Positions 5,180 to 27,494 of a DNA stretch of 64,000 nt are shown here, one piece after another. Position 1 is the stretch's first letter. Each line of letters starts with the position of its first letter. Origin of the DNA: Mangrovivirga cuniculi (lineage in GTDB: Bacteria; Bacteroidota; Bacteroidia; Cytophagales; Cyclobacteriaceae); contig NZ_CP028923.1 of NCBI RefSeq assembly GCF_005166025.1, positions 981,001-1,045,000 of the forward strand. The letters are read 5' to 3'. Under the pieces are notes generated by a model. That model made no database searches. It was not told the origin of the DNA and saw only the letters and a list, made by a program, of their open reading frames with translations. A program made the position numbers and the translations under genes.

Positions 5180-6085
5180 ATGTCGAAAGTTCAAGTATCC
5201 AAAGTTCATACTTTTAAGGGCCATAAAGATTGTATTTATGCACTTGAAGATCTCGGTGATGGTCATCGGTTTGTTTCATCCGGTGGAGATGGAATGATTG
5301 CGGAGTGGGATATAAGGGAGCCTGATAAAGGAAAGCTTCTGGCAAAAGTAAATAGATCTGTATATGCTCTGCATAAGGCCGGTGATCGACTTGTAATCGG
5401 AGAAAATTTTGAAGGAATTCATGTTGTTGACCTTCAAAGCAAAAAAGAAATTGGATCTTTGAAATTATCTTCTGCAGCATATTTTGATATTCGATCTTTT
5501 CAGGGCAATTTTATAGTGGGAGATGCTGATGGAACGATTTTTATTATAAAAGGAGATAGTCTTTCTTTAATAAAAACTATAACCGAGTCTCAAAAAAGTG
5601 CACGAACCATATCTATTTCTGAAAAAAGGGGAGAGATGGCAGTCGGATACAGTGATAATCACATAAGAATTTTTTCTTTGGAAAATTTTGAGTGCCTTTA
5701 TTCGTATCTGGCACACGACAATTCAGTGTTTACCGTTGAGTATTCAGAAGATGGGGAAAAACTGATAAGTGGAGGTCGTGATGCAAAAATAAAAGTATGG
5801 AATGCTCAGAAAGGATATGAATTACAGGAAGAAGTTGTAGCTCATATGTACACAATAAATAATCTTGCATATAGAGCGGACTTTAAATATTTTGTATCGG
5901 CTAGTATGGATAAATCCATTAAAGTCTGGGATGCATCAGAGATGAAGCTTTTAAAAGTTATCGATAAGGTACGACATGCCGGGCATGGGACATCAGTAAA
6001 TAAGCTATTATGGCTTCCGGAAACCGATTTAGTTGTCTCTGCAGGTGATGATAGGATTGTTTCTATTTGGGAATTATCTCTATAA
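5180..6085 (+). CDS. WD40 repeat beta-propeller protein
   Basis: Composed almost wholly of seven WD40-like blades (301 residues). The clearest repeat ends are GMIAEWDI, AKIKVWNA, KSIKVWDA and RIVSIWEL. Blades 2-4 are diverged. There is no signal peptide or membrane segment, so it is probably cytoplasmic. Propellers of this kind are binding scaffolds and the partner cannot be told from sequence. The gene is divergent from the phosphopantetheinyl transferase gene and lies 48 bases before the DivIVA-like gene on the same strand. Confidence 0.85.
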   Translation: MSKVQVSKVHTFKGHKDCIYALEDLGDGHRFVSSGGDGMIAEWDIREPDKGKLLAKVNRSVYALHKAGDRLVIGENFEGIHVVDLQSKKEIGSLKLSSAAYFDIRSFQGNFIVGDADGTIFIIKGDSLSLIKTITESQKSARTISISEKRGEMAVGYSDNHIRIFSLENFECLYSYLAHDNSVFTVEYSEDGEKLISGGRDAKIKVWNAQKGYELQEEVVAHMYTINNLAYRADFKYFVSASMDKSIKVWDASEMKLLKVIDKVRHAGHGTSVNKLLWLPETDLVVSAGDDRIVSIWELSL

Positions 6086-6133: not shown

Positions 6134-7096
6134 ATGAAAGTTACACCATTAGAAATACGCCAGAAGACTTTTGAGAAAAAGCTCAGAGGATATGACAAAG
6201 AAGAGGTTCAGGCGTTTTTGCTTTCACTTTCCCAGGAATGGGAGAAAGTTATTGAAGAGAACCGCGAACTGCGGATCAAACTTCAGACGTCGGAAAAGGA
6301 GGTTGAAAAGTTAAGGGAGGTGGAAGAATCACTATTCAAAACCCTGAAAACGGCCGAGGACACCGGCGCTAACGTGATAGAGCAAGCTAATAAACAGGCT
6401 GACCTCAATGTTCGCGAATCTCAATGGAAAGCTGAATCTATAATTAATGAGGCTAAAGGAAAGGCAAAAGATTATTTGATTGATGCTGAAAATAAAGCAA
6501 AATACATCCTTGATGATATGCTGGAAGAATTGCGCAAGCTGGAAAAAAATTACAGTGTGCTCAAAGGATATAAGAATGATCTGTTAACTGAGATTAAATC
6601 TATCTCAAATGAAATTGCTGATAAGGTATCAAGAATAGAACAAAGTGGTGAAAAGGACATTGACAAAGCAATCAGAGATGCGAAGGAAGAAGTGAGGTCA
6701 CTAAGGCCTGCAAATGACATCATTAGAGATGTTCTTTCTTCGGAAGGAGGGACTAAAAACACAAAGTTCGAACCAGATGATATTGCTGACAATACTGAAA
6801 AAGAAAATGAAGAGGTAGCCAGAAAACTCGAAGAAGAGAGAAAAGCGATAGAAGAAGAAGCCGAGAGATTACGGCTGGAGGCAGAAAGACAGAAAGAAGA
6901 AGCCGAAGTAGCTAAGAAAAAAGAAGAAGAGCTATTAAGACTAAAGGAAGCAGAAGAACGAAAAAAAGCGGAAGCTGCGAAATTGATCAAAGAACAGGAG
7001 GAGAAAAAATCTAAAGCTGAAAAAGAAAGAAAAAGCAGAGTGTCATCTGATCCAAATGATGAAGAGGAAGGATCGTTTTTTGATAATCTGGATTGA
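6134..7096 (+). CDS. DivIVA-domain coiled-coil protein
   Basis: The N-terminal 35 residues match the DivIVA/GpsB membrane-binding head: TPLEIRQKTFEKKLRGYDKEE then VQAFL. A long coiled coil follows (about residues 36-180). After a linker comes a very charged Glu/Lys/Ala/Arg helix (about 215-300) and a short acidic tail ending FFDNLD. DivIVA proteins sense membrane curvature and organise division or polar growth in Gram-positive bacteria. The Bacteroidota versions have no role known to me. The stop codon is two bases before the FolB ATG, so the two genes are probably co-transcribed. The domain call is firm; the function is open. Confidence 0.82.
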   Translation: MKVTPLEIRQKTFEKKLRGYDKEEVQAFLLSLSQEWEKVIEENRELRIKLQTSEKEVEKLREVEESLFKTLKTAEDTGANVIEQANKQADLNVRESQWKAESIINEAKGKAKDYLIDAENKAKYILDDMLEELRKLEKNYSVLKGYKNDLLTEIKSISNEIADKVSRIEQSGEKDIDKAIRDAKEEVRSLRPANDIIRDVLSSEGGTKNTKFEPDDIADNTEKENEEVARKLEEERKAIEEEAERLRLEAERQKEEAEVAKKKEEELLRLKEAEERKKAEAAKLIKEQEEKKSKAEKERKSRVSSDPNDEEEGSFFDNLD

Positions 7097-8323: not shown

Positions 8324-8376
8324 CCGGAGAAAAATCATTTTTATATTTTTGTATCCATAATTAATTATTGACCAAT

Positions 8377-9450
8377 ATGGTATTTGGATTATTTAAAAAG
8401 AAAAAGAAAAAACCTTCAGGTCCGGATTATGTGGACCTTTCAGTTAAAGATATTATTAAAGAAACACCCGATGCCATCACTATCGTTTTTGATGCCCCAG
8501 ATATGGATTATAAGCCAGGGCAATTTCTAACTTTAATTAGTGATATTAACGGAGAGGAAATCAGGCGATCATATTCTCTTTGCACGTATAAAGAAATAGA
8601 TGAATATCCTGCAGTGACTGTAAAAAGAGTGCAGGGTGGAAAAATGTCTAATTATTTAAATGAAGCTCTTCATATAGGTGATACAATTACTGTAATGAAG
8701 CCAAAAGGCCATTTTACGGTAGAGACAAATCAGGCAAACGGTCGTCATATAGTATTATTTGGTGCCGGAAGTGGTATCACTCCATTAAAAGGTATTGCTT
8801 CTCAGGTATTAGAGGACGAACCAAATTCAACTGTTTCATTGATCTATGCCAACAGAAACCATGAATCTATAATTTTCAGAAATGCCTGGACAGAAATGAT
8901 AGCAAAATATGAAAATAGATTGAGTGTAAGTCATATCTTGGAAGAGGCATCGGATAATTTTGAAGCGAGAACGGGGCTTCCCTCAAAAGAAATGCTTGTT
9001 GAGCTGGTGAATGATCTGACCGGTAAAGATCCTGCATATTATTTCATGTGTGGACCTGCTCCTTTTATGGAAAAAGTAGAAGAAGCACTGGAAGAACTTA
9101 ATGTTCCGAAGGAAATAGTTAAGAAAGAAAGCTTTACTCCTGCAAAGAAAAAAGAAATTGAAACGGACCAGTCTGTACAAAGGACTGTAAAAGTGATTAT
9201 AGATGATGAAGAACATGATGTAACTGTTCAACCCGGGCAGAGTATCCTTGAAGCAGGTTTAATCATGGATCTTGATATGCCTTTTAGTTGCCAGAGTGGT
9301 ATGTGTACGGCTTGCAGAGCTAAGTGCCTGAACGGAAAAGTATCAATGGAAGAAAGTGATGCTTTGACAGATGAAGAATTAGAAGAAGGATATGTGCTTA
9401 CGTGTGTAGGCCATCCTGAAACAGATGATGTAAAACTGGAATTTGACTGA
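8377..9450 (+). CDS. FAD/NAD(P)H- and 2Fe-2S-containing oxidoreductase (PaaE-like ferredoxin reductase)
   Basis: Flavoprotein reductase passing electrons from NAD(P)H through FAD to a plant-type 2Fe-2S cluster. Order: FAD-binding barrel with RRSYSLCT (about residues 63-70), nucleotide-binding domain with GAGSGITPLKG and YFMCGPAPFM, then a C-terminal ferredoxin domain. The cluster ligands are Cys305, Cys310, Cys313 and Cys343. The layout matches PaaE of the phenylacetyl-CoA epoxidase and similar monooxygenase reductases. No paaABCD genes are here, so the partner oxygenase is unknown. ATG 8377 is preferred to an in-frame TTG at 8368. A TAnnTTTG box (8344-8351) lies 26 bases upstream and could be the -7 element, though no -33 TTG is properly spaced. 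Confidence 0.88.
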   Translation: MVFGLFKKKKKKPSGPDYVDLSVKDIIKETPDAITIVFDAPDMDYKPGQFLTLISDINGEEIRRSYSLCTYKEIDEYPAVTVKRVQGGKMSNYLNEALHIGDTITVMKPKGHFTVETNQANGRHIVLFGAGSGITPLKGIASQVLEDEPNSTVSLIYANRNHESIIFRNAWTEMIAKYENRLSVSHILEEASDNFEARTGLPSKEMLVELVNDLTGKDPAYYFMCGPAPFMEKVEEALEELNVPKEIVKKESFTPAKKKEIETDQSVQRTVKVIIDDEEHDVTVQPGQSILEAGLIMDLDMPFSCQSGMCTACRAKCLNGKVSMEESDALTDEELEEGYVLTCVGHPETDDVKLEFD

Positions 9451-9451
9451 A

Positions 9452-11179
9452 ATGATTGATACTACAAATACAACTGATAAACCTGAAAGACATTTCCTGC
9501 CACAGGAACTGAAGGTGAATAGCTGGGATGAAATTAAACCATTTTTTGATAACCTTGTTGAACGCGAAATCGGAACTGAGGAAGACCTGAGAAAGTGGTT
9601 TCGAGATAGAAGCGAGTTAGAAGCAGTTATTTCCGAAAACCTTGGATGGAGATATATCAGAATGACGACGGATACCGGGAATGAAAAATATGTAGAAGAT
9701 TATAAAAATTTCATTCAAAATATTCAGCCCCATATCTCCCCATATTCAGATAAGCTTAATAAAAAGGCTGTAGAAAGCGATTACCTTAAGAATATCGAGA
9801 AGGAGAAGGCCTATTTCATTTTATCCAGGGGGATGAAGGAAAACATTAAGATTTTCAAGGAAGAAAATATCCCTCTTCAAACTAAGGCTCAGACTAAATC
9901 ACAGGAATATGGCTCGATAACCGGAGGAATGACTATCGAGCTTAATGGAGAAGAATTAACACTCCAACAGGCAGGCGATTTTTTATTGAGTCCTGATCGA
10001 AATTTACGCGAAAAAGTTTATAAGAAAATTAGTGAGAGGAGGCTTCAAGATAAGTCAAAGCTTGATGATATTTTTAATGAGCTAATTACCCTGAGAGATC
10101 AGATGGGTAAAAACTCAGGGTTTAAAAACTACCGTGATTACAAGTTTTCAGCAATGGGTAGGTTTGATTATTCTGTTGAAGATTGTTTTGCTTTCCATGA
10201 TTCTGTTTCTAAAGAAGTCGTGCCACTATTAAATAAAATGGCTGAAAGGCGAAAAGAAACTCTTGATGTTGACCATCTGAGACCATGGGACAAAAGCGTG
10301 GACCCGGAAGGCAATACTCCTTTAAAGCCATTTGAAGGAGGAGAAGAGTTACTCGAAAAGACAATTAAAGTATTTGATAAGCTTGATCCTTATTTAGGTA
10401 AATGCCTCGTTCGAATGAAAGAAATGGGGCATCTCGATCTTGAAAGCAGAAAAGGCAAGGCTCCGGGTGGATATAATTATCCATTATCTGAGACCGGTGT
10501 TCCATTTATCTTCATGAATGCTACTACCAAATTGAGAGACATGGTAACACTTTTACATGAAGGAGGACATGCCGTACATTCATTTCTGGCCAATGATCTC
10601 GAATTAACTGATTTTAAACATACTCCATCAGAAGTTGCTGAATTGGCGAGTATGTCAATGGAGCTTTTGACTATGGATTATTGGGATATATTCTTCACAA
10701 ATGAAGAGGAATTGAAGCGAGCAAAAAAGGAACATCTTGAACAAATAATCCAGACGTTACCGTGGGTTGCAACAATAGATAAATTTCAACATTGGATCTA
10801 TGAAAATCCCGGGCATACTGTAGAAGAAAGGGATGCCGAGTGGGTAAAGATCTTTAGTGAGTTTGCAGACAATGTAACAGACTGGTCAGGATTAGAGAAA
10901 TTCAGAAAGAACCTGTGGCAGCGACAGCTTCATTTATTTGAAGTTCCTTTTTATTACATTGAGTATGGAATGGCTCAATTAGGTGCGGTTGCTGTCTGGA
11001 AAAATTTCAAGGAGGACAATGAGCAGGGGCTTGATAATTATAAAAATGCCCTGAAACTTGGATATACTAAAACAATTCCAGAGATATACGAAGCTGCTGG
11101 TATCTCATTTGATTTTTCATCTGAATATATCAGTGAATTAATGTCTTTCGTAAATGATGAATTGAATAAGATCGTGTGA
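9452..11179 (+). CDS. M3 family oligoendopeptidase (PepF-like)
   Basis: Zinc metallopeptidase of family M3 that cleaves short peptides in the cytoplasm. The 575 residues are the expected size. The active site is HEGGH (His369, Glu370, His373) with downstream EVAELASMSMELL supplying the third zinc ligand, and IEYGMAQLGA near the C-terminus is a family feature. There is no signal peptide. The ATG lies one base after the reductase stop; an in-frame TTG at 9443 would overlap that gene and is less likely. A strong hairpin terminator follows. Confidence 0.92.
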   Translation: MIDTTNTTDKPERHFLPQELKVNSWDEIKPFFDNLVEREIGTEEDLRKWFRDRSELEAVISENLGWRYIRMTTDTGNEKYVEDYKNFIQNIQPHISPYSDKLNKKAVESDYLKNIEKEKAYFILSRGMKENIKIFKEENIPLQTKAQTKSQEYGSITGGMTIELNGEELTLQQAGDFLLSPDRNLREKVYKKISERRLQDKSKLDDIFNELITLRDQMGKNSGFKNYRDYKFSAMGRFDYSVEDCFAFHDSVSKEVVPLLNKMAERRKETLDVDHLRPWDKSVDPEGNTPLKPFEGGEELLEKTIKVFDKLDPYLGKCLVRMKEMGHLDLESRKGKAPGGYNYPLSETGVPFIFMNATTKLRDMVTLLHEGGHAVHSFLANDLELTDFKHTPSEVAELASMSMELLTMDYWDIFFTNEEELKRAKKEHLEQIIQTLPWVATIDKFQHWIYENPGHTVEERDAEWVKIFSEFADNVTDWSGLEKFRKNLWQRQLHLFEVPFYYIEYGMAQLGAVAVWKNFKEDNEQGLDNYKNALKLGYTKTIPEIYEAAGISFDFSSEYISELMSFVNDELNKIV

Positions 11180-11191
11180 TAAAGTAAAACT

Positions 11192-11226
11192 AAAAAAAAG
11201 GGTGTTCAATTGAGCACCCTTTTTTT
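11192..11226. terminator. bidirectional rho-independent terminator
   Basis: The hairpin 11200-11219 pairs GGGTGTTC with GAGCACCC (one G-T pair). It has eight A before it and seven T after it, so it can end the peptidase transcript and the convergent receiver transcript. Confidence 0.9.
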
Positions 11227-11704
11227 ATGCAGTAAATATTCCATACAATATCACACCAATTATTATGGCCAGAAGAATCAATCCAAAGAATACATTTACT
11301 TTTTTTCTTTGCCCGGTGTAGTAACTTCTAAGTTTCTTTTCAATTTCAATTCCAGCTTCTTCATTAGAAGTAATTGCTCCTTCTGCTCCAGCTTTGATCG
11401 ATTCTTCAATGATCACTTCATTAGTTCCTTCTTTGAAAAGAACATAAATTGGCAAATTTTTATATTTCTGTCTGATTCTTTTGATCAGATCAATTCCATT
11501 CAATCCCTTAATGTTAATGTCGGTTACAACAGCCCAGGGTCGGGTATCATCAAGGTAGCTCAACAACTCATTACTTTCGGTAAAAGTCCGGATTTTCCTG
11601 AATCCTTTGTCTTCAAGATGCATTTTTATGAGTTCCAGCTTCATTTCCTCATGAGCACCGATAACCAGCGGCTGATGTCTTGTGGTTAACATGCTTATTC
11701 CCAT
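11225..11704 (-). CDS. tail-anchored response-regulator receiver-like protein
   Basis: Residues 10-115 resemble a CheY-like receiver. The probable phosphoacceptor is Asp62 in VVTDINIKGLNG. The usual acidic pair on strand 1 is replaced by GAHEE, the switch Ser/Thr is not in its usual context and the Lys-Pro near the end is absent (AITSNEE), so the domain is partly degenerate. Residues 138-157 form a single membrane helix at the extreme C-terminus, with a basic RKK before it. This makes a tail-anchored protein with the receiver in the cytoplasm. There is no output domain. The stop codon lies in the terminator region shared with the peptidase gene. It is followed upstream by a lipoprotein and a membrane protein on the same strand. 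Confidence 0.7.
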   Translation of the reverse strand: MGISMLTTRHQPLVIGAHEEMKLELIKMHLEDKGFRKIRTFTESNELLSYLDDTRPWAVVTDINIKGLNGIDLIKRIRQKYKNLPIYVLFKEGTNEVIIEESIKAGAEGAITSNEEAGIEIEKKLRSYYTGQRKKVNVFFGLILLAIIIGVILYGIFTA

Positions 11705-11727
11705 TATAACTCTGGTTAGTGAAAATC

Positions 11728-12327
11728 TTATTCAGACGGAATAGTAAAAACTCCTTTTTCTTCAGGTTGTGTGCCGTTTTCAAAGCCTGCAATTGAATCG
11801 GGATAAGTAACTATGATCTCATTATATACTTTAGTATGAACATCATGATCAATTCGAAGCATTAAACGGTTATTATTTGCAGCTTCGATGCTATCCATCA
11901 GAGCTTTTGCATCTTCTGATTTTTCTTCAAGATTGATTTCATCAGCTGCTTCAAATAAATTCATCGTAAAGGTATCCGTGGCTGAATCATATTCGTCAAT
12001 TTTTTCAGAATCTTTTAAATCCTCTCTTGAATATTGTAATTCCTTAAGATCGTTAAGGTTGTTTTTAAGTTCCTCAGCTTTTTCTGATGAAAGGCCTTTA
12101 TTTTCCATTTCACTGATCAGTTGATTCATAAGATCAAATTTATTTTCATCTTCACTGATCATATTTTCCCAGCTACTGTCAGATTTGAATTTAACAGTAT
12201 TATACAGGGCATAAACCGAATCATAATTCACTAAATTTTCAGCTTTATCATCAGTTTTTGTACCACATGAAGCTGTAAATAATATTAGAAATACGATAAT
12301 CAGGTCACTAAAATGTTTTGTTCTCAT
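11728..12327 (-). CDS. hypothetical lipoprotein, acidic and helical
   Basis: I do not recognise a family. Residues 1-21 form a lipoprotein signal with lipobox TASC (Cys21). The mature part is about 178 residues, rich in Glu, Asp, Asn and Lys, and mostly helical by pattern (repeats of ENK, SEKAEEL, EEKSEDA). It ends with a short extended segment near VTYPDS and GVFTIPSE. It lies two bases from the membrane-protein gene upstream and 23 bases from the receiver gene downstream, so the three probably form one operon. Confidence 0.7.
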   Translation of the reverse strand: MRTKHFSDLIIVFLILFTASCGTKTDDKAENLVNYDSVYALYNTVKFKSDSSWENMISEDENKFDLMNQLISEMENKGLSSEKAEELKNNLNDLKELQYSREDLKDSEKIDEYDSATDTFTMNLFEAADEINLEEKSEDAKALMDSIEAANNNRLMLRIDHDVHTKVYNEIIVTYPDSIAGFENGTQPEEKGVFTIPSE

Positions 12328-12329
12328 AG

Positions 12330-12854
12330 TTAAAAAATTTTCCTTATTTCATTTTTTAAAGTGATCATAGCAGAAATCACAGGATTACTTTCGTCTTGCA
12401 TGCTTTCATTAAGCACGATTTTAGCAAGTTCAAGCCCGGGAGCATTTTTATCGCAACGACTAGCCGCATCATTAATCGAACTGATCATGAATTCTTTGGC
12501 ATTTTTGATTTGTTGCCAGGAATCATCGCTCATATAAATTTGTTGAGCGAGGTTGTGCTGATACTCATTGCTTATTTCATTGATAGCGACATATCTTAAC
12601 TCATCCGCTGTCAGATCATTTCTGTTAATCCTTGGGAATAAATTGTCTGGAGATATACGCTCTAAAAATAATGTCATCCTTTCGAAGGCTTGTAATCGTA
12701 TTGGAAGAGCTGCTTCGGCATTATTTGCTTTAATTTTAAGCTCTTTTTTATCGAGTTCCCTGGCAATAAATGATTTTGTAGCAAGATACATTGCTGTTAA
12801 AACCAATGCTGCCGGGATTGTGATTTTTAAAATATCACCGATAATTCCTTCCAT
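12330..12854 (-). CDS. conserved hypothetical membrane-anchored protein
   Basis: A 174-residue protein with one N-terminal membrane segment (about residues 8-28, KITIPAALVLTAMYLATKSF) and a helical cytoplasmic part. The stretch LPIRLQAFERMTLFLERI followed by a DELRYVAINEISNEYQHN segment looks conserved and similar proteins occur in Bacteroidota, but I cannot name a function. It is the first gene of the probable three-gene minus-strand operon; only two bases separate it from the lipoprotein gene. Confidence 0.7.
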   Translation of the reverse strand: MEGIIGDILKITIPAALVLTAMYLATKSFIARELDKKELKIKANNAEAALPIRLQAFERMTLFLERISPDNLFPRINRNDLTADELRYVAINEISNEYQHNLAQQIYMSDDSWQQIKNAKEFMISSINDAASRCDKNAPGLELAKIVLNESMQDESNPVISAMITLKNEIRKIF

Positions 12855-15221: not shown

Positions 15222-16307
15222 TTAGAATATGAATCCAAAGCTTACTGCATTTAAATCCGGGGCATTTACATCATCAAATACCGGGTTAAGATCATAGTCC
15301 ACAAAGAAGTTAAAGTTTCCATAGCCTATTTGAGCTCTTAATCCATATCTGAAATTATTCATGTTAAAGCTTGAGAAGTCTTTATCTTTCTCCTTGTCAC
15401 CCTCAAAATTGTAAGTGTATTTTGAATAGCTGGCTAGTCGGTAACCTACAAAGCCTCCAAAACCTACTCTAAAGCTTTTCTTATTATATCTTGTCACATT
15501 TCTAATACTTCCGTCACTCAATTCTATTGGTTTCTTTTTGTATGAGAAATCAAGCATTGGAACAAAGTGCATTGTAGCATAAGAAGCTGTTAGTTTACTT
15601 TTTATAAAACCAAGCTCAGGATTTTGATCCTGCGTGAAAACTACTCCTGTTTCAGTTTTGGAAATTCGGGTAGCAGGATCATCAAATTTAAAGTTGTACC
15701 AATGGATACCAGCTCCCCATAATAGAAACAAAGGTCCACCGAAAGATGATTTATTCTCGATAGTACCTCCTATGCGAGCACTATGCCATGGTTTCACTGC
15801 ATATTGGGAATTACCTGAAGGGAAATCAGATCCTTCAACCCAATTATTTAATCCATATTCAATATGACCTGTAGTTTTTGTACCAGGCCTTTTCCTGTTA
15901 TCTTCAACTTTGCCATGTTTTCGAGGATATTGAATAACTAATTCCTCATCGCCCTGATCATCTTCGTAATCTTCACCTTCTACCAATACCTCAGTGGAGC
16001 CATCAGATTTGATGATATAAATTTTTCCTTTATCCTCTTTTATGATTCGAGCATAATCAGATTCATTTTTAATTATAATTCTTTTGAATTCATCCGAGTC
16101 ACCAGAATCAAGATGGTACCGATAATCATCAACAATCTTATTTAGATTGTAATTTCGTATTACCTCAAGCCCCAAAGTATCGTTATATTGAATTATGACA
16201 GTATTATTGCCAGGGAATTCAAGTTTTAGAGTATCGGGATTCTGACCATAAGAATTTGTAGCTGTAAGAAATATTGAAGCCAGAATAAAAATTATTTTCG
16301 TTTTCAT
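15222..16307 (-). CDS. putative outer-membrane beta-barrel protein of an ECF-sigma operon
   Basis: Residues 1-22 are a signal peptide ending near SYGQ. An acidic N-terminal domain of about 110 residues contains DKGKIYIIKSDGSTEVLVEG. The rest has alternating aromatic strands (for example FRVGFGGFVGYRLASYSKY) and ends in FGFIF, a barrel-like C-terminus. No known enzyme motif is visible. It is the third gene after the ECF sigma factor and the anti-sigma-like gene (two bases apart from the latter), a layout common in Bacteroidota where the barrel may be the main target or a sensor. Function unknown. Confidence 0.7.
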   Translation of the reverse strand: MKTKIIFILASIFLTATNSYGQNPDTLKLEFPGNNTVIIQYNDTLGLEVIRNYNLNKIVDDYRYHLDSGDSDEFKRIIIKNESDYARIIKEDKGKIYIIKSDGSTEVLVEGEDYEDDQGDEELVIQYPRKHGKVEDNRKRPGTKTTGHIEYGLNNWVEGSDFPSGNSQYAVKPWHSARIGGTIENKSSFGGPLFLLWGAGIHWYNFKFDDPATRISKTETGVVFTQDQNPELGFIKSKLTASYATMHFVPMLDFSYKKKPIELSDGSIRNVTRYNKKSFRVGFGGFVGYRLASYSKYTYNFEGDKEKDKDFSSFNMNNFRYGLRAQIGYGNFNFFVDYDLNPVFDDVNAPDLNAVSFGFIF

Positions 16308-16309
16308 AC

Positions 16310-17110
16310 CTATTCAGTTTCTAAGTTTTTGTTTTTACCATTGAATGCGAGTAACTGACTGGTAGTGTTTTTGATCGATTTAAAAATCTTTTTACTTTCA
16401 TTGGTAGCCTTTGAGTCAGAGGCAAGTGATTCAAGCAATGAATCATCACCCCACATCTGCTCTTCACCTAAGTTTCCTTGATCCGTAGGTTCAGGCTTTG
16501 TTGTTTTTGTAGCAACCTTTCCGAAGGTTAAAGTAACTGATTGAGACTGATCAGATATTTTTTCCTCCATCTGTGGTTCTGTAATATTTTTTAATTCTTT
16601 TCCGTCAGCAAGCATATTTTTTGTTTGAATTTGTTCTGTCTGCTCAACTGACTCCTGCATGTTAATTTTTTTAGGGTTTGATGATTTTGTATTATTTGCT
16701 ACTTCGATTTGTTTTCCGGAATCGGTAGCTGATTTGCTTGTAATCGCTTCGACCTTTTTTCCTTCATTTTCATTTTCAGTTATTGTAGAGTTATTGGTAT
16801 TATCCGCAATTAATTCTTCAGTTTTTATCGGAGTATTTAATTTTTCATCGTTCTTTTCAATTTGTGGAATGTTCAATTCTTCAGTTTGCTGAACCAAAAT
16901 ATCTTCTTCTTCAGGTAACTGAAATAACACTATTGAAGCAACTCCAAGGAATAAAATAGCGGCAGCCACCCTGTAAAATATCCGTTTTTTGGACTTGCTT
17001 TTTTTCTGCTTCAGCATTTTATCCAGATCCTCCCACGCTTTTGGTGACGGATCAGACTCATGGGTGCTGAGTTTATCTCTAAAGAGCTTGTCTAAATTTG
17101 AATTATCCAT
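16310..17110 (-). CDS. putative anti-sigma-like single-pass membrane protein
   Basis: The cytoplasmic N-terminus (residues 1-42) has the Bacteroidota pattern LFRDKLSTHESDPSPKAWEDL. It is followed by one membrane helix (about 46-65, AAAILFLGVASIVLFQL) and a long low-complexity periplasmic region rich in Glu, Asn, Thr and Lys. Its gene overlaps by eight bases the end of the sigma factor gene. Position and layout suggest it holds or modulates the sigma factor, but there is no HxxxCxxC zinc anti-sigma motif, so this is inference. Confidence 0.65.
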   Translation of the reverse strand: MDNSNLDKLFRDKLSTHESDPSPKAWEDLDKMLKQKKSKSKKRIFYRVAAAILFLGVASIVLFQLPEEEDILVQQTEELNIPQIEKNDEKLNTPIKTEELIADNTNNSTITENENEGKKVEAITSKSATDSGKQIEVANNTKSSNPKKINMQESVEQTEQIQTKNMLADGKELKNITEPQMEEKISDQSQSVTLTFGKVATKTTKPEPTDQGNLGEEQMWGDDSLLESLASDSKATNESKKIFKSIKNTTSQLLAFNGKNKNLETE

Positions 17111-17699
17111 GGTGGTCCTCCTTTAAATTTTTATTAATGCGTTCCTCTTCATAAGAAAGCATTTTTTGTAACTGTGACCTTGCCCTGCTTAATTGGCTTT
17201 TACTGGTGTTTTCACTTATGTTGAGTTTTTCTGCAATTTCTTTATGAGAAAACCCATCGATAGCATACAATGAAAAGACAGTTCTATAGCCTTGGGGTAA
17301 TTTATCAATCAGTTTTAAAAGGTCTTCTGCTTCGAGAGAATTGGATAGTGAATTATAATCCTGAACATTTGAAGCTGCATTCAAGTCAGACTCAGGCCAC
17401 ATATTTTTATTCTTCCTGAGATACATTAATGCTTCATTTACCATTATCTTTCTCATCCATCCTTCGAAGCTACCTTGAAATTCATATTGATCTATTTTTT
17501 CAAAGATCTTCATGAATCCTTTCACCATAACTCCTTCTGCCTCGAGGCTATCAGATATATACCGCCGGCAAATGGCATGCATTCTGCCGGAATACCGATC
17601 ATATAGCTCTTTTTGCGCATTTCGTTTCTGCTTTTTACAATCCAGAACAATTTGCTCAAGTGAGTCGTTATGTGAAATTTTTAGTCTCATTACTCGCAT
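17103..17699 (-). CDS. ECF-type RNA polymerase sigma factor
   Basis: Sigma-70 family group 4 protein of 198 residues. Region 2 runs through ELYDRYSGRMHAICRRYI and FEGWMRKIMVNEALMYLRK (about residues 30-95). Region 4 is LPQGYRTVFSLYAIDGFSHKEIAEKL with the helix-turn-helix ISENTSKSQLSRARSQL (about 135-185). It directs RNA polymerase to a stress or envelope regulon not identifiable here. ATG 17699 or the in-frame ATG at 17690 could be the start. It leads the operon with the anti-sigma-like and barrel genes. Confidence 0.9.
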   Translation of the reverse strand: MRVMRLKISHNDSLEQIVLDCKKQKRNAQKELYDRYSGRMHAICRRYISDSLEAEGVMVKGFMKIFEKIDQYEFQGSFEGWMRKIMVNEALMYLRKNKNMWPESDLNAASNVQDYNSLSNSLEAEDLLKLIDKLPQGYRTVFSLYAIDGFSHKEIAEKLNISENTSKSQLSRARSQLQKMLSYEEERINKNLKEDHHG

Positions 17700-21406: not shown

Positions 21407-22486
21407 ATGATGAGATTGTGTTGGTTGATTTTTTTTCTACCTTCCCTGCTTTTTGCTCAGGTTAGTACCCCGAAATATGCTAATGAATACCTCGCTCTGG
21501 GAGTCGGGGCAAGAGCGTATGGAATGGGTAGTGCCTTTCAATCTGTTTCCTCTGATGTTTATTCAGGTTATTGGAACCCGGCAGGACTTATGGGAATTCC
21601 AACGGATGAGTTACAAGTAGCTGCCATGCATACCTCGTTGTTTGCAGGAATAGCAAATTACGATTACGCCTCGATCGCTGCGCGAACAGATTCATCCACC
21701 TCTCTTGCTTTTTCTTTTATCAGGTTGGGAGTGGATGACATTCCGGATACCCGGTTTTTGTACGATGCCGATGGCTCGATAAATTATGATAACATAAGGT
21801 TTTTTTCTGCCTCTGACTATGCCTTTATTTTTTCAGTTGCCCATATTTTCCCAAAAACTCCTGACCTACACTTCGGAGCAAATGTTAAAGTATTGTATAG
21901 AAATGCAGGTGATTTTGCTACTGCCTGGGGATTTGGGTTTGATCTCGGACTTAAAACGAAACTTGGTAAATGGGATGTGGCAGCGAACTTAAGGGACGCG
22001 ACCGGTACATACGTGGCATGGTATCATGAAACAAGCTTGCTATCACAAATATATGCGCAGACAGGGAATGAGATATCTGATCAAAGTCTGGAGATTTCTC
22101 CACCCAGATTGATTATTGGAGCCAGCCGAAGATTTAATCTATTAGAAGAAAAAATAGGTATAAGGCCTGCCCTGGACCTGTTATTTACTTTTGATGGTAA
22201 GCGAAATACTTTAATCTCCGGAAGTTTTACCTCCATTGATCCTTATGCAGGGGTTGAATTTGATTATAAACAAATGATATTTGTGAGGGGTGGGGCCGGA
22301 CAGGTTCAAAAATCAAAAAACTTTGATGGCACTGAATCATATAAAGTAACACCATCAGCAGGAGTAGGGCTAAAAATCAAAAATTTTTATATTGATTATG
22401 CTCTGACAGATATGGGCAATGTCAATGATGCTCTTTATTCTCATATATTCAGTTTAAAAGTAGATTTTAGTCTTAATAATGAATAG
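21407..22486 (+). CDS. PorV/PorQ family outer-membrane protein
   Basis: Beta-barrel protein of the PorV/PorQ type linked to the type IX secretion system. After a signal peptide (about residues 1-18, ending LLFAQ) comes the family hallmark EYLALGVGARAYGMGSAF, then YSGYWNPAGLMGI. The rest is alternating strands ending in FSLKVDFSLNNE. PorV proteins shuttle T9SS cargo to the sortase and PorQ-like proteins are related; which subtype this is cannot be settled by eye. ATG 21407 is preferred to an in-frame TTG at 21374 because it gives a normal signal peptide. It overlaps the PorU2-like gene by eight bases, a strong sign of a joint role. Confidence 0.82.
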   Translation: MMRLCWLIFFLPSLLFAQVSTPKYANEYLALGVGARAYGMGSAFQSVSSDVYSGYWNPAGLMGIPTDELQVAAMHTSLFAGIANYDYASIAARTDSSTSLAFSFIRLGVDDIPDTRFLYDADGSINYDNIRFFSASDYAFIFSVAHIFPKTPDLHFGANVKVLYRNAGDFATAWGFGFDLGLKTKLGKWDVAANLRDATGTYVAWYHETSLLSQIYAQTGNEISDQSLEISPPRLIIGASRRFNLLEEKIGIRPALDLLFTFDGKRNTLISGSFTSIDPYAGVEFDYKQMIFVRGGAGQVQKSKNFDGTESYKVTPSAGVGLKIKNFYIDYALTDMGNVNDALYSHIFSLKVDFSLNNE

Positions 22487-25400
22487 AAGCAAAACATATT
22501 TACTTCTTATAGTTTTCACAGCTTTTATTTTTCCAGTAAGAGCTCAGTATACTAATGACTGGATAAATCCAAACCAGGATTATTATAAGCTTAAGGTTGC
22601 TGAAACAGGGTTTTACAGTGTTACTTATGAAGATCTTCAGGATAATGGTATTTCCATTGATGAAATTGATCCACGACTCTTAAAGTTATATTTCAGAGGT
22701 GAAGAGCAATCTATTTTGATAAGAGGTGAGTCAGATGGAAGTTTCGATCCGGGTGATGAACTGATATTTTACGGACAAAGGAATGATGGAACTCTGGATC
22801 AGCAAATATATTCAGAACCCGGTGACCAGCCTCACCAGTTTTATAATATCTATACTGATACAGCTTCATATTTTTTAACTTCAAGTTTTGATGGATCGCT
22901 GGGTAAAAGAATGCCATTATATTCGGGCAATGACCCGGGCAATTTACCTGTAATAGAATCTCATCAAGCAGAAGCACTTAGAGTTTTTACTGATCAGGCT
23001 GCCACTGGTGTCAGGTATATCGGTGATATTATGCTTTCTGCATTTGATCAGGGTGAGCAATGGACTGGTACCAGAGTTCGCCGTGGACAATCATTTGATT
23101 TTTCATTAGCTCCTGTTGCCTCAGGTATAACATCTTCCCCAAATCCTGTTTTCACTATTCAATTGACAGGCCGAAACAACAGGGATCACATTGTAGATGT
23201 TTATGTCGGACCATCACCGTCTGAATTATCTTTGATCACAACTCTTTCTTTTAATGGTTTTATAAATGCTACATATACGGGAGAAATACCCTGGTCGTTG
23301 GTAGGACCAAATGATGAAGTTGTAGTACAGATTACAGTGAATAATACTACTGCGGATGATGTATCGGTATCCTATGCGAATCTAGTTTATACCCAAAATG
23401 CAGATATGCTTGGTGAGCCGGCTAAGATGTTTTCTTTTCCCAGGCAAAATACCGGGGATGCTATTGGGAGAATTAGAAATGCTTCACTGGTGGAGGAATT
23501 GTTTGATATAACAGATCCCGATAATATCAGAAGGGTTTCATATCAGAATGTTCAAAATGATATCGAATTTATTTATGATGGTGCATTAATTGAACGCGAT
23601 TTTTATGCTACATCAAATTTTCTGTCAGTACCTGAAATTCAATCAGCATCATTTAAGCAACTGGATTTAAATGCTGATTACCTGGTTATCACGAATAATC
23701 TGTTACGAGTACCGGCACTGGATTATGATGATCCGGTAGAAGCTTATGCATCATACCGGGCTTCTGCTGAAGGAGGTAGTTATGATACTTTAATAATGAA
23801 TGTTCAAACCATTTATGATCAGTTTAATTATGGACAGCCAGGTCCTGGTGGAATTTATAATTTGATTAAATATCTACATGACAATGGTAACCTAGAAATG
23901 ATTTTTATAGCTGGTAGGGCACTTTATTGGTTTAGAAATTACTATCGCAATGGCCCTATAACCAGCGATGGAGATGATGTGCTCCATGATTTAGTGCCAA
24001 CAGCAGGCTTCCCCGGTAGCGATGCTCTTTATACTGCTTATTTAGATGGAAATAATCCCTATGGCACCATTCCCATAGGAAGATATCCTGCCAAAAACGC
24101 TCAAGATATTGCAGTATATCTAAACAAAGTTAGAGAAATAGAACAATTACCATTTGATGCTCTTTGGCGAAAAGATTTTTTGCATTTAAGCGGTGGACTT
24201 ACCGAAAATGAGTTAATCAGTTTTAGGCGTTATGTAAATAATTTTAAAGTAGATGCCGAATCTCATTTCATGGGAGGAAAGGTTACGACACAAGGTAAAA
24301 GCACTAATAACTCTATTGAGGAAATAAATATTGCTGAAGCAGCGAATAGCGGATTAGCCATGATAACCTTTTTCGGGCATTCCGGCACTGTAGCTTCTGA
24401 TATTGATATAGGAAAAGCCTCAGATCCTACCCAGGGATATGAAAACCAGGGGAAATATCCATTCATGCTGATCAATGGGTGTAGTGCAGGAAATTTATAT
24501 AGTTCGGCAATAGCCTTCAGTGAAGATTGGTTGATAATTCCTAATAAAGGGTCTATTGGTTTCATAGCCCATGCAAATTTGGCGTTTAGTACTGATCTCA
24601 GACGGTATTCAGGTTTGATTTACGATTATGCTTTTTCGGACAGTGTTTTTATCAATAAATCGATAGGAGAAATTAAGGCCAAAACAGAGAGAGAATATTA
24701 TAATAGTATTTTTCCAAGCGAAAGGCATTTGGCTCAGATACACCAGATGGTTTTGTACAGCGACCCGGCAGTACAATTATTTGGTGCGAAGAAACCCGAT
24801 TATGCAGCGATAAGTGAAACTTTTTCAATTCAGGATGCGAGAGGAGGAGCTTTAAATGATCAGTCAGATTCGATTTCAATTAATCTTGCATTTCACAATT
24901 TTGGGACAACTGTAAAAGATTCAATTAATTATCGTATAACCAGGATACTGGAAGACGGAACTACCTTTTTTTACGATGATTTTTTCAGGCCATCCATACT
25001 GTATAGTGATACTATAACTTTTAATATACCGAATGTATCAGGAGCTTTTGGAAACAACATTTTAGAGATCACCGTTGACTCGGAAAATTTTGTTGATGAA
25101 TTAAACGAGGTAAACAACACAATTAGAGTCCCTATTTTTATTCCTAAAAGTGGTGTGTTGACTCTTTTACCTCCTGAATTTTCAGTTTTATCTGATACAC
25201 AGACTGATCTTATTGTTAGTTCCTCTGACCCGAGTGAAAGGAACAGAACTTTTATTGTAGATATTGATTCTTCCTTCTTTTATAACAGTCCTGTTTTTAA
25301 TTCAGAACAGGTGTCTGGCGAAATTATTGCTGAAAGGTCCTATACTTTAGCTGAACAGGATAGTGTGAGTTGGTATTGGAGATCGAAATATGCAACTCCT

Positions 25401-27494
25401 TCACCTGAAGAGGACACTTCATTTGTAAGGAGTTCTTTTAGTTATATAGATGGCCATCCTGAAGCCTGGGCTCAATTGAATTCCGGTCAGTTTACTTTTA
25501 ATGATCTTGAAGGAATTGAAATAGATCCGATAACAGGTGAATGGAATTTTGAGAATACAGAAGCATTGGTGGGTTTGACAACTTATGGTGCTTCTAACCC
25601 CGATAGTGATCCGGAAAATATACGTTTGTTCATTAACGATTTGAACTATATCATTACAGATGATCCTCGAAAAGTATGTCGTAATAATAGCTTAAATGCT
25701 ATCGCTTTTGATCGACAGAATGCCAATCCTTTTGCAGTTCTTGATAATGGCAATTTTGATCTTTTGGACCCTAATCGATGCGGAAGGAGACCTCAGGTAA
25801 TAAATAATTTCCTCAATTCTCAGTTGAACGAGAGAAATGGGCCAGATCTTGTAGATTATATTAATGGATTAAAAAATGGTGATAAAGTAGTTATTTTCAG
25901 TATAGGTTCTGCCTCTTATACCACTTTAAATGATCAGACTAAGCAAGCATTATCAGAAATTGGAGTTCAGGTTTCTGCCTGGAATGATTTCTCAGATGGA
26001 GATCCGATTATTATTATTGGAGCAAAAGGATCATCAGCAGGGGATGCCCGGGTAATTAAAGCTGAGGTTTCTCCGGAGGAGCTTCAGGAGATCAGTTTTG
26101 ACGGAATCATTACCGGGAGATTTGATGAAGGAGAGCTGATCTCTTCAAGAATTGGTCCAGCCACCAGTTTTTCCACTCTTAAAATAAAGGCAATAACCGG
26201 TGCCACAGATAATTATTCAGTGGATCTGATTGGTGAGAATTTTTCCGGAGATCAAACAAATATATCCGGATTTACCGAATTGCAAAATGGAGAGTATGAC
26301 GTAAGCTCAATAAACCCTCAGGATTACCCCTATTTAAGGCTTAAATATAATATTAGTGATTCTGAAAATAGGACGCCCGCTCCTTTGGATTATTGGTTTG
26401 TTACATTAAGTTATCCGCCGGAGGGAATTTTATACCCAGTAAACGAAACACAAGTAGAGCGAACTGAATTAAATGAAGGTGAGTCAAAAGTAATAGATTT
26501 TGCCTTCAGGAATATATCAGAAAAAGAATTTGCTGATTCGCTGAAAGTGTCCCTGAGAATGAGAAACCAGGAAACCGGGAAAATTTTTAATGATACTATA
26601 AAGATTAATTCTCCTCAACCAGGTGAGGAAGAAGTATTTAGTGTAGAATTTAATACAGAAGGCTTTGCAGGTGAAAATGATCTTTCTGTTTTTGTTAATC
26701 CGTATGTCCAACCTGAAATATATTATACTAACAATGTATTTTCGGGTGATCGATTGCTTTCTGTAAAGAGGGACACATTACAACCTACACTTAAAGTGAC
26801 GTTTGATGGAAGAACAATAATGGATGGTGAAATAGTTTCTCCGGATCCTTTAATATCGATAAAAGTCCGTGATGAACAGAATTCATTGAGGAAAACAGAT
26901 ACAACAGGAGTTGAGTTATTATTTAAGCCTGATTGTGAAGGGTGTAATTATGAACAAGTTATCCTGGCTTCAGATCAGGTTGAGGTTTTACCAGCACTCG
27001 ATGATAGAGATTTTACCTTAAACTTTCGGCCCGGGCCCCTGGAGGATGGAGTTTATTCCCTTTGGGTTAAAGCTGCCGATGGCTCAGGAAATCAAACAGG
27101 CAGCGAACCATATGAGATTTCGTTTGAGGTAATAAATGAGTCAACAATTACAAATTTTTATCCATATCCGAATCCTTTTTCAACATCAACAAGGTTTGTT
27201 TTCACATTAACTGGCTCTGATATACCCGAAGAAATTAAAATTACCATAATGACTATTAGTGGAAGAATAGTTAGAGAGATCACCCAGGATGAATTAGGCC
27301 CTATTCACTCAGGTAATAATATCACTGAATTTTCATGGGATGGGACTGATGAATTTGGGGATAAACTGGCAAATGGTGTTTATCTTTACAAAGTTTCTAT
27401 TCAAAATCAGGGGGAACAAATAAAACAAAGAAGTCTGGGGCCAGACGCCAGGGCTTTTAAAAATGGTTTTGGGAAACTTTATATCTTAAGATAA
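22479..27494 (+). CDS. C25-family type IX secretion sortase, PorU2-like
   Basis: Very large (1671 residues) secreted gingipain-fold protein. After the signal peptide (to about residue 22) comes a beta-rich N-terminal part. Next is the C25 catalytic domain with His634 in FFGHSGTV and Cys668 in LINGCSAGN, followed by a CARDB-like domain. A segment around residues 1080-1240 (FINDLNYI, NGLKNGDKVVIFSIGSAS) resembles the ILEI/interleukin-like EMT inducer fold. More Ig-like domains follow, and a FlgD-like/T9SS C-terminal domain from about 1560 (YPYPNPF, NGVYLYKV). PorU cuts and attaches T9SS cargo at the cell surface; PorU2 is the larger relative found in Cytophagales. Cys and His are intact, so it should be active. 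It overlaps the PorV-like gene by eight bases. Confidence 0.82.
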   Translation: MNRSKTYLLLIVFTAFIFPVRAQYTNDWINPNQDYYKLKVAETGFYSVTYEDLQDNGISIDEIDPRLLKLYFRGEEQSILIRGESDGSFDPGDELIFYGQRNDGTLDQQIYSEPGDQPHQFYNIYTDTASYFLTSSFDGSLGKRMPLYSGNDPGNLPVIESHQAEALRVFTDQAATGVRYIGDIMLSAFDQGEQWTGTRVRRGQSFDFSLAPVASGITSSPNPVFTIQLTGRNNRDHIVDVYVGPSPSELSLITTLSFNGFINATYTGEIPWSLVGPNDEVVVQITVNNTTADDVSVSYANLVYTQNADMLGEPAKMFSFPRQNTGDAIGRIRNASLVEELFDITDPDNIRRVSYQNVQNDIEFIYDGALIERDFYATSNFLSVPEIQSASFKQLDLNADYLVITNNLLRVPALDYDDPVEAYASYRASAEGGSYDTLIMNVQTIYDQFNYGQPGPGGIYNLIKYLHDNGNLEMIFIAGRALYWFRNYYRNGPITSDGDDVLHDLVPTAGFPGSDALYTAYLDGNNPYGTIPIGRYPAKNAQDIAVYLNKVREIEQLPFDALWRKDFLHLSGGLTENELISFRRYVNNFKVDAESHFMGGKVTTQGKSTNNSIEEINIAEAANSGLAMITFFGHSGTVASDIDIGKASDPTQGYENQGKYPFMLINGCSAGNLYSSAIAFSEDWLIIPNKGSIGFIAHANLAFSTDLRRYSGLIYDYAFSDSVFINKSIGEIKAKTEREYYNSIFPSERHLAQIHQMVLYSDPAVQLFGAKKPDYAAISETFSIQDARGGALNDQSDSISINLAFHNFGTTVKDSINYRITRILEDGTTFFYDDFFRPSILYSDTITFNIPNVSGAFGNNILEITVDSENFVDELNEVNNTIRVPIFIPKSGVLTLLPPEFSVLSDTQTDLIVSSSDPSERNRTFIVDIDSSFFYNSPVFNSEQVSGEIIAERSYTLAEQDSVSWYWRSKYATPSPEEDTSFVRSSFSYIDGHPEAWAQLNSGQFTFNDLEGIEIDPITGEWNFENTEALVGLTTYGASNPDSDPENIRLFINDLNYIITDDPRKVCRNNSLNAIAFDRQNANPFAVLDNGNFDLLDPNRCGRRPQVINNFLNSQLNERNGPDLVDYINGLKNGDKVVIFSIGSASYTTLNDQTKQALSEIGVQVSAWNDFSDGDPIIIIGAKGSSAGDARVIKAEVSPEELQEISFDGIITGRFDEGELISSRIGPATSFSTLKIKAITGATDNYSVDLIGENFSGDQTNISGFTELQNGEYDVSSINPQDYPYLRLKYNISDSENRTPAPLDYWFVTLSYPPEGILYPVNETQVERTELNEGESKVIDFAFRNISEKEFADSLKVSLRMRNQETGKIFNDTIKINSPQPGEEEVFSVEFNTEGFAGENDLSVFVNPYVQPEIYYTNNVFSGDRLLSVKRDTLQPTLKVTFDGRTIMDGEIVSPDPLISIKVRDEQNSLRKTDTTGVELLFKPDCEGCNYEQVILASDQVEVLPALDDRDFTLNFRPGPLEDGVYSLWVKAADGSGNQTGSEPYEISFEVINESTITNFYPYPNPFSTSTRFVFTLTGSDIPEEIKITIMTISGRIVREITQDELGPIHSGNNITEFSWDGTDEFGDKLANGVYLYKVSIQNQGEQIKQRSLGPDARAFKNGFGKLYILR

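Follow-up and report, generated by a model that had tools for sequence, protein, structure and literature searches.

A tail-anchored pseudo-receiver in Mangrovivirga cuniculi that may act as a phosphorylation-independent docking protein

What can a response-regulator receiver do if it has no output domain, has lost most of its catalytic residues and appears to be fixed in the membrane by its tail? Such a protein is encoded in the stretch of Mangrovivirga cuniculi DNA analysed here (64,000 nucleotides, contig NZ_CP028923.1, positions 981,001 to 1,045,000; hereafter the window). A sequence-only reading had grouped it with a lipoprotein and a membrane protein. The ORFs of all three were found where that reading placed them, on the minus strand, and the locus contains the following features.

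9443-11179, convergent to the run of three: M3 peptidase gene (PF01432)
11193..11226, no strand assigned: strong A/T-flanked hairpin separating the receiver gene from the convergent M3 peptidase gene, found by folding
11225..11692, minus strand: tail-anchored pseudo-receiver gene, 155 aa (PF00072, E 5.9e-14; orthologues 97% and 77% identical; start as in the orthologue)
11225-11704, minus strand: longer form of the receiver ORF, 159 aa, starting at ATG 11704
11234..11299, minus strand: predicted transmembrane helix at the C-terminus, spanning roughly residues 136-157 of 159 (hydropathy; within the last helix of the structural model, which has mixed confidence)
11519..11521, minus strand: codon of Asp62 (Asp58 from the second ATG), the sole catalytic residue kept (alignments; codon read directly)
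11728..12327, minus strand: gene 2 of the run, putative lipoprotein (Cys21, nearly invariant) of an unnamed family
12330..12854, minus strand: gene 1 of the run, DUF7935 membrane protein (PF25589, E 6.5e-60)
From 12992, divergent from the run: HesB/SufA-type gene (PF01521)

The run is read in the order 12854-12330, 12327-11728 and 11704 (or 11692)-11225, with gaps of 2 bases and then of 23-35 bases, depending on the receiver start chosen. This spacing suggests that the three genes are co-transcribed as an operon. The hairpin, folded as the minus strand, has a stability of -15.5 kcal/mol (z -4.96, 0 of 200 shuffles equally stable) and is probably a two-way terminator; it is absent from the list of a pattern-based scan. 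A promoter-like pattern had 10 matches against 8.1 expected, one of which (11/12) lies upstream of the DUF7935 gene at 12942-12913. For the Bacteroidota-type consensus pattern 8.4 matches were expected in the window; there are 6, and the region upstream of the run has none.

Some other genes of the window can be mentioned here. The start of the M3 peptidase ORF is overlapped by a few bases, as listed, by a flavin/2Fe-2S oxidoreductase ORF (8368-9450), which from its domains we take to be PaaE-like. A WD40-repeat protein gene (5180-6085), in a bacterial genome, lies just upstream of a DivIVA gene (6134-7096). In the region 15222-17699 the gene of an ECF-type sigma factor (minus strand, 17103-17699) is followed by one with no Pfam match and, by eye, one apparent membrane helix, which is anti-sigma-like by its position, and by a 361-aa gene that likewise matches nothing in Pfam and whose product seems to carry a signal peptide. 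At 22479-27494 there is a 1671-aa protein with a Peptidase_C25 domain, a domain also present in PorU, the type IX secretion peptidase; the ORF of this protein runs into the end of the upstream 370-aa ORF.

The receiver assignment is well above chance, the PF00072 match reaching 52.6 bits as compared to a curated cut-off of 30.2. The domain is also degenerate, as had been read from the sequence: Asp62, counted from ATG 11704, aligns with the phospho-Asp position, while Ala17-His18 stand at the acidic pair and Ser113 at the conserved Lys. The Thr position, which the earlier reading did not mention, is also lost (Phe90), i.e. four of the five catalytic residues are gone. The internal ATG 11692 is the more likely start, because the Marinigracilibium pacificum orthologue begins there, and the Asp would then be residue 58.

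The same picture is seen in all three orthologues of the genus. Aligned on canonical relatives, their five catalytic positions are Ala, His, Asp, Phe and Ser/Ala/Thr, with Lys/Asn at T+1 and Ala/Val at K-3; only the Asp and the Gly at D+8 survive among the positions checked, and a PDB profile alignment gives the same register for the catalytic positions. In a canonical phospho-receiver the DD pair is accompanied by D, T/S and K; each orthologue here retains one of these five. As the coupling and catalytic residues are listed by Bourret et al. (PMC12632262, section 7), these changes mean that the metal pair, the Lys and both Y-T coupling residues have been removed. The same paper defines a pseudo-receiver (PsR) by the lack of at least one of the five residues, and the window receiver, lacking four, falls under this definition. 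The aspartate-less receiver (ALR) class does not fit, the Asp being present in 3/3 orthologues. On these alignments we class the window receiver as a pseudo-receiver and not as an Asp-less one.

A receiver-like fold had been proposed as well, and structure prediction bears this out. The AlphaFold2 model, built from three sequences, is modest to weak (mean pLDDT 60.6, residues 87-122 below 50), and its best PDB matches are receivers (Foldseek best E 6.6e-6); compared with CheY structures it gives VIA Z 12.4, at 2.6 A across some 100 residues. The predicted fold is thus the CheY-like alternating beta-alpha one, with low confidence in the beta5-alpha5 part. The single membrane helix of the earlier reading is likewise predicted from hydropathy: one hydrophobic stretch closes the protein, with a 19-residue Kyte-Doolittle mean of 2.92 from residue 138 of 159, the highest value anywhere in it. 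Hence the protein is tail-anchored in the sense used throughout, i.e. a single C-terminal hydrophobic helix is its strongest hydrophobic stretch. It consists of the receiver domain and this tail only, with no output domain, again as first described. The tail is preceded by a basic stretch, QRKK. According to the positive-inside rule a basic flank marks the cytoplasmic side of a membrane helix, which would place the receiver in the cytoplasm, with the tail as the probable membrane anchor.

The receiver is under strong purifying selection. Compared with Mangrovivirga halotolerans its dN/dS is 0.017, next to 0.018 (DUF7935), 0.023 (M3 peptidase), 0.051 (HesB) and 0.120 (lipoprotein); in the comparison with M. 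pacificum dS is saturated for the receiver, DUF7935 and M3 genes, and no ratio is given. Pseudogene decay of the receiver was considered and is ruled out by the value of 0.017. The gene has a narrow distribution. Orthologues (77-97% identical) are present in 3/3 genus genomes, and a scan of genome contigs returned only M. halotolerans and Marinigracilibium pacificum. A viral origin was rejected, as one pattern-based scan gave no relative on a viral contig. The first receiver search had matches in 53 of 59 genomes, and those listed from outside the genus are receivers of many kinds with 19-37% identity. Among the 44 PF00072 matches of its own genome the window receiver alone has an open frame of 140-210 aa and, judged by frame length, is probably the only tail-anchored one there.

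The distribution of the changes along the protein is uneven. Against M. pacificum the segment from beta1 to alpha4 differs at 14 of 104 residues and the beta5-alpha5-linker segment at 14 of 28 columns (Fisher p 1.0e-4, with segment boundaries chosen after viewing the alignment). The contrast implies that beta5-alpha5, part of the usual output face, is free to change, whereas alpha1, alpha4 and the loops on the active-site side are fixed. In these three orthologues this mildly favours docking through alpha1 and the active-site-side loops; the position of alpha4, part of the usual output face, within the conserved segment counts against the argument.

Do the three genes belong together? Of the two accompanying envelope genes, both said to be of unknown family, the lipoprotein has indeed no match below E 0.1 in Pfam or NCBIfam. 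The membrane protein, in turn, belongs by its profile match to DUF7935, a family of unknown function (201.9 bits, cut-off 27, full length at 3-171 of 171 profile positions). DUF7935 was found in 57 of 59 genomes of relatives and lipoprotein homologues in 30 of 59. The predicted structure of DUF7935 is uninformative (mean pLDDT 43.1). In the aligned rows of the lipoprotein family (window 11728-12327; L064-L090) Cys, Trp, Tyr-Asp, Arg, Asp and Asn positions are nearly invariant.

For the neighbourhood survey that the sequence-only reading had suggested, we fetched loci for 30 of 57 DUF7935 matches and for 30 of 31 lipoprotein matches, each with flanks of about 1.5 kb (less in three loci). The order and orientation of the trio are kept in 3/3 genus genomes. 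The sequence-only reading had named a lack of co-occurrence elsewhere as its refutation, and in the loci fetched from outside the genus the module fails by this standard. Of the 60 loci, only the 6 from the genus contain a receiver match or the DUF7935-lipoprotein pair; neither was found, within about 1.5 kb on each side, at any of the 54 loci outside it (27 DUF7935 and 27 lipoprotein), where the lipoprotein search, which recovered 28 of 30 known lipoprotein loci, could miss very divergent copies. Moreover, each partner has recurrent neighbours of its own. A HesB-like cluster lies near DUF7935, usually in the opposite orientation, in 28 of 30 fetched loci (25 of 27 outside the genus). The 27 lipoprotein loci outside the genus have a PaaD-like cluster in 14 cases, a PaaC-like one in 13 (both names rest on the Pfam matches of one representative each) and an M3 peptidase in 5.

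These data bear on the possibility that the trio is a dedicated membrane signalling module with DUF7935 and the lipoprotein as the receiver's sensor and outer-membrane partner. The arrangement within the genus speaks for it, being retained despite synonymous sites near or at saturation against M. pacificum, as do the short gaps; with 0/54 outside loci holding the receiver or the pair, and with DUF7935 so regularly near a HesB-like gene, we consider this quite unlikely. The loci covered outside the genus and the different neighbours of each partner lend no support to the trio as an ancient unit, and as a conserved one we reject it beyond the genus. The genus arrangement looks as if an M3/lipoprotein and a DUF7935/HesB neighbourhood had been joined, the receiver gene separating the M3 gene from the lipoprotein gene. 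Thus, of the membrane-bound, possibly non-phosphorylated signalling module first proposed, the tail-anchored degenerate receiver, probably without canonical phosphorylation, survives, and the three-gene module does not.

We note that in a protein which lacks an output domain and is tied to the membrane, it is the receiver surface itself that has to do the work there. The reading that we prefer, and to which we give an even chance, is that of a membrane-tethered docking protein independent of phosphorylation. The C-terminal tail anchor would fix the single-domain pseudo-receiver to the inner membrane on its cytoplasmic side, where the protein, constitutively folded, would offer a docking surface that needs no phosphorylation of the Asp. 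At the membrane it would recruit, or compete for, a partner, which may be a histidine kinase, another receiver or a membrane enzyme; the contact surface would be formed by the conserved alpha1 helix and the active-site-side loops, and the amount of receiver would be set by transcription with the two upstream genes. Here we infer membrane topology, lack of phosphorylation, docking and co-transcription alike. A point against this reading is that a search of about 1.5 kb around the genus loci gave no histidine kinase gene.

The retained Asp could also be phosphorylated by an unusual route. The protein would then be a working phospho-acceptor of uncommon type, brought by its anchor to a membrane kinase, and the chemistry would come from that kinase or from other acids, such as Glu19/Glu20. 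Neither the Asp nor its GLNG loop varies among the three orthologues, but the same is true of most of residues 1-104, and the invariance of the Asp by itself says little; the loss of the acidic pair, the Thr and the Lys, together with the residues at T+1, also argues against this role. Other tail-anchored receivers, most with intact chemistry and some with a kinase gene nearby (see below), are in its favour, and we regard it as unlikely.

Such receivers were sought with L005, a tail-anchored receiver that was a weaker hit of the first receiver search, and with a combined profile, after which the loci were read. By the hydropathy criterion there are 26 tail-anchored receiver ORFs, of which 3 belong to the genus and 23 to 19 further genomes in the order; the combined profile included five canonical tail-anchored receivers, so the set is enriched for canonical ones and is no census. 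The 23 include three with weak helices (L130, L131, L132; 1.78-1.99) and three near-copies (L141, L142, L196). All five catalytic residues are present in 18 of this enriched set, four in 2 and three in 3, i.e. the three genus orthologues are the most degenerate among the tail-anchored receivers found. Milder tail-anchored pseudo-receivers are L183, L186 and L188 (K lost, DD2 Asn) and L184 and L187 (DD2 Lys/Arg); all five continue for a short tail past the hydrophobic helix, and the ends of L183, L186 and L188 resemble one another.

The flanks of the 23, with neighbour reference proteins typed by Pfam, contain a Wza-like polysaccharide-export gene in 8 cases, 4 of them with an NtrC-like regulator. 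A histidine kinase gene is found in 5 others, a receiver-Hpt protein in 1 (L185) and none of these in 9. The neighbours of L130 (truncated by the locus end) and of L185 have receiver and Hpt domains only and are left out of the kinase count. The Wza-adjacent tail-anchored receivers (L128, L130, L131, L132, L140, L143, L191, L192) have intact catalytic residues, and some also have Wzc-like and NtrC-like genes nearby; short receivers with no clear helix, judged by eye, adjoin Wza-like genes in further genomes as well (L126, L129, L133, L135, L136). At the three genus loci no Wza-like, Wzc-like or NtrC-like neighbour was matched within about 1.5 kb.

Descent of the window receiver from these exopolysaccharide-locus receivers is attractive from the architecture, but the tree gives no supported grouping and the HMM of tail-anchored receivers is not the one that scores it best. 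The tree, of 137 receivers on 133 columns, leaves many forks unresolved and carries a warning that long branches meet at the window protein, for which it has no supported neighbour beyond the genus; the starred branches alone force at least three changes of the tail-anchored label. HMM scores for the window receiver, biased in that many rows were fetched by similarity to it, are 68.8 bits for short soluble receivers, 57.1 for those of DNA-binding length, 52.0 for all tail-anchored, 45.7 for NtrC-length and 42.4 for 11 tail-anchored ones (mostly exopolysaccharide-linked, some kinase-linked). One might suppose that the protein is a relic of such a receiver, moved beside unrelated genes and now of little function. 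The Wza-like neighbours of 8 of the 23 fit this, but the strong constraint on the gene, the tree and the higher score with the short soluble HMM speak against it, and we find it highly improbable.

A wider proposal is that tail-anchored single receivers are a distinct membrane-bound class of response regulators in Cytophagales-type bacteria, often at polysaccharide-export loci, and that in the Mangrovivirga lineage one such receiver turned into a membrane adaptor that needs no phosphorylation and is part of a DUF7935-lipoprotein operon. We put this forward as a speculation that is probably not right in full. If it were true, the two kinds would be a natural before-and-after pair for a receiver that loses its chemistry yet keeps a function. 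The window protein, tiny, highly constrained, with a membrane anchor and no output domain, is a clean case, and the other tail-anchored receivers, mostly with intact chemistry and several of them near polysaccharide-export genes, are intact counterparts for comparison. We found no description of tail-anchored single receivers in Bacteroidota in the parts available to us of the open-licence literature searched; a membrane-anchored archaeal output domain, MetOD3, is named in PMC5847659.

Among known systems, the closest in architecture are the canonical exopolysaccharide-locus receivers of the order (L128, L140, L192), which are likewise single receivers of about 155-165 aa with one C-terminal hydrophobic helix; they have the five residues intact and Wza/Wzc-like neighbours, whereas the window receiver has lost four and sits elsewhere. 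FrzS of Myxococcus xanthus is a multidomain protein. Together with PleD and WhiI it is among the pseudo-receivers reported to act by protein contacts (PMC12632262, section 19), and it resembles the window receiver as a pseudo-receiver serving as a docking surface; it is a polar protein, whereas ours is a tail-anchored single domain. EpsW, a single-domain response regulator of M. xanthus, is reported in the abstract of PMC12802240 to bind a membrane enzyme; it shares the lack of an output domain, but is active when phosphorylated, and that abstract mentions no tail anchor. In the main text of Bourret et al. (2025, PMC12632262) a word search gave one hit for 'membrane' and none for 'single domain' or 'Bacteroid'. 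The bacterial pseudo-receivers, or atypical response regulators, treated in that text are similar to the window protein in matching PF00072 without the catalytic residues, in keeping the Asp and in being probably independent of phosphorylation; the window protein differs from them in its tail anchor, in having no output domain and in the loss of four of the five residues.
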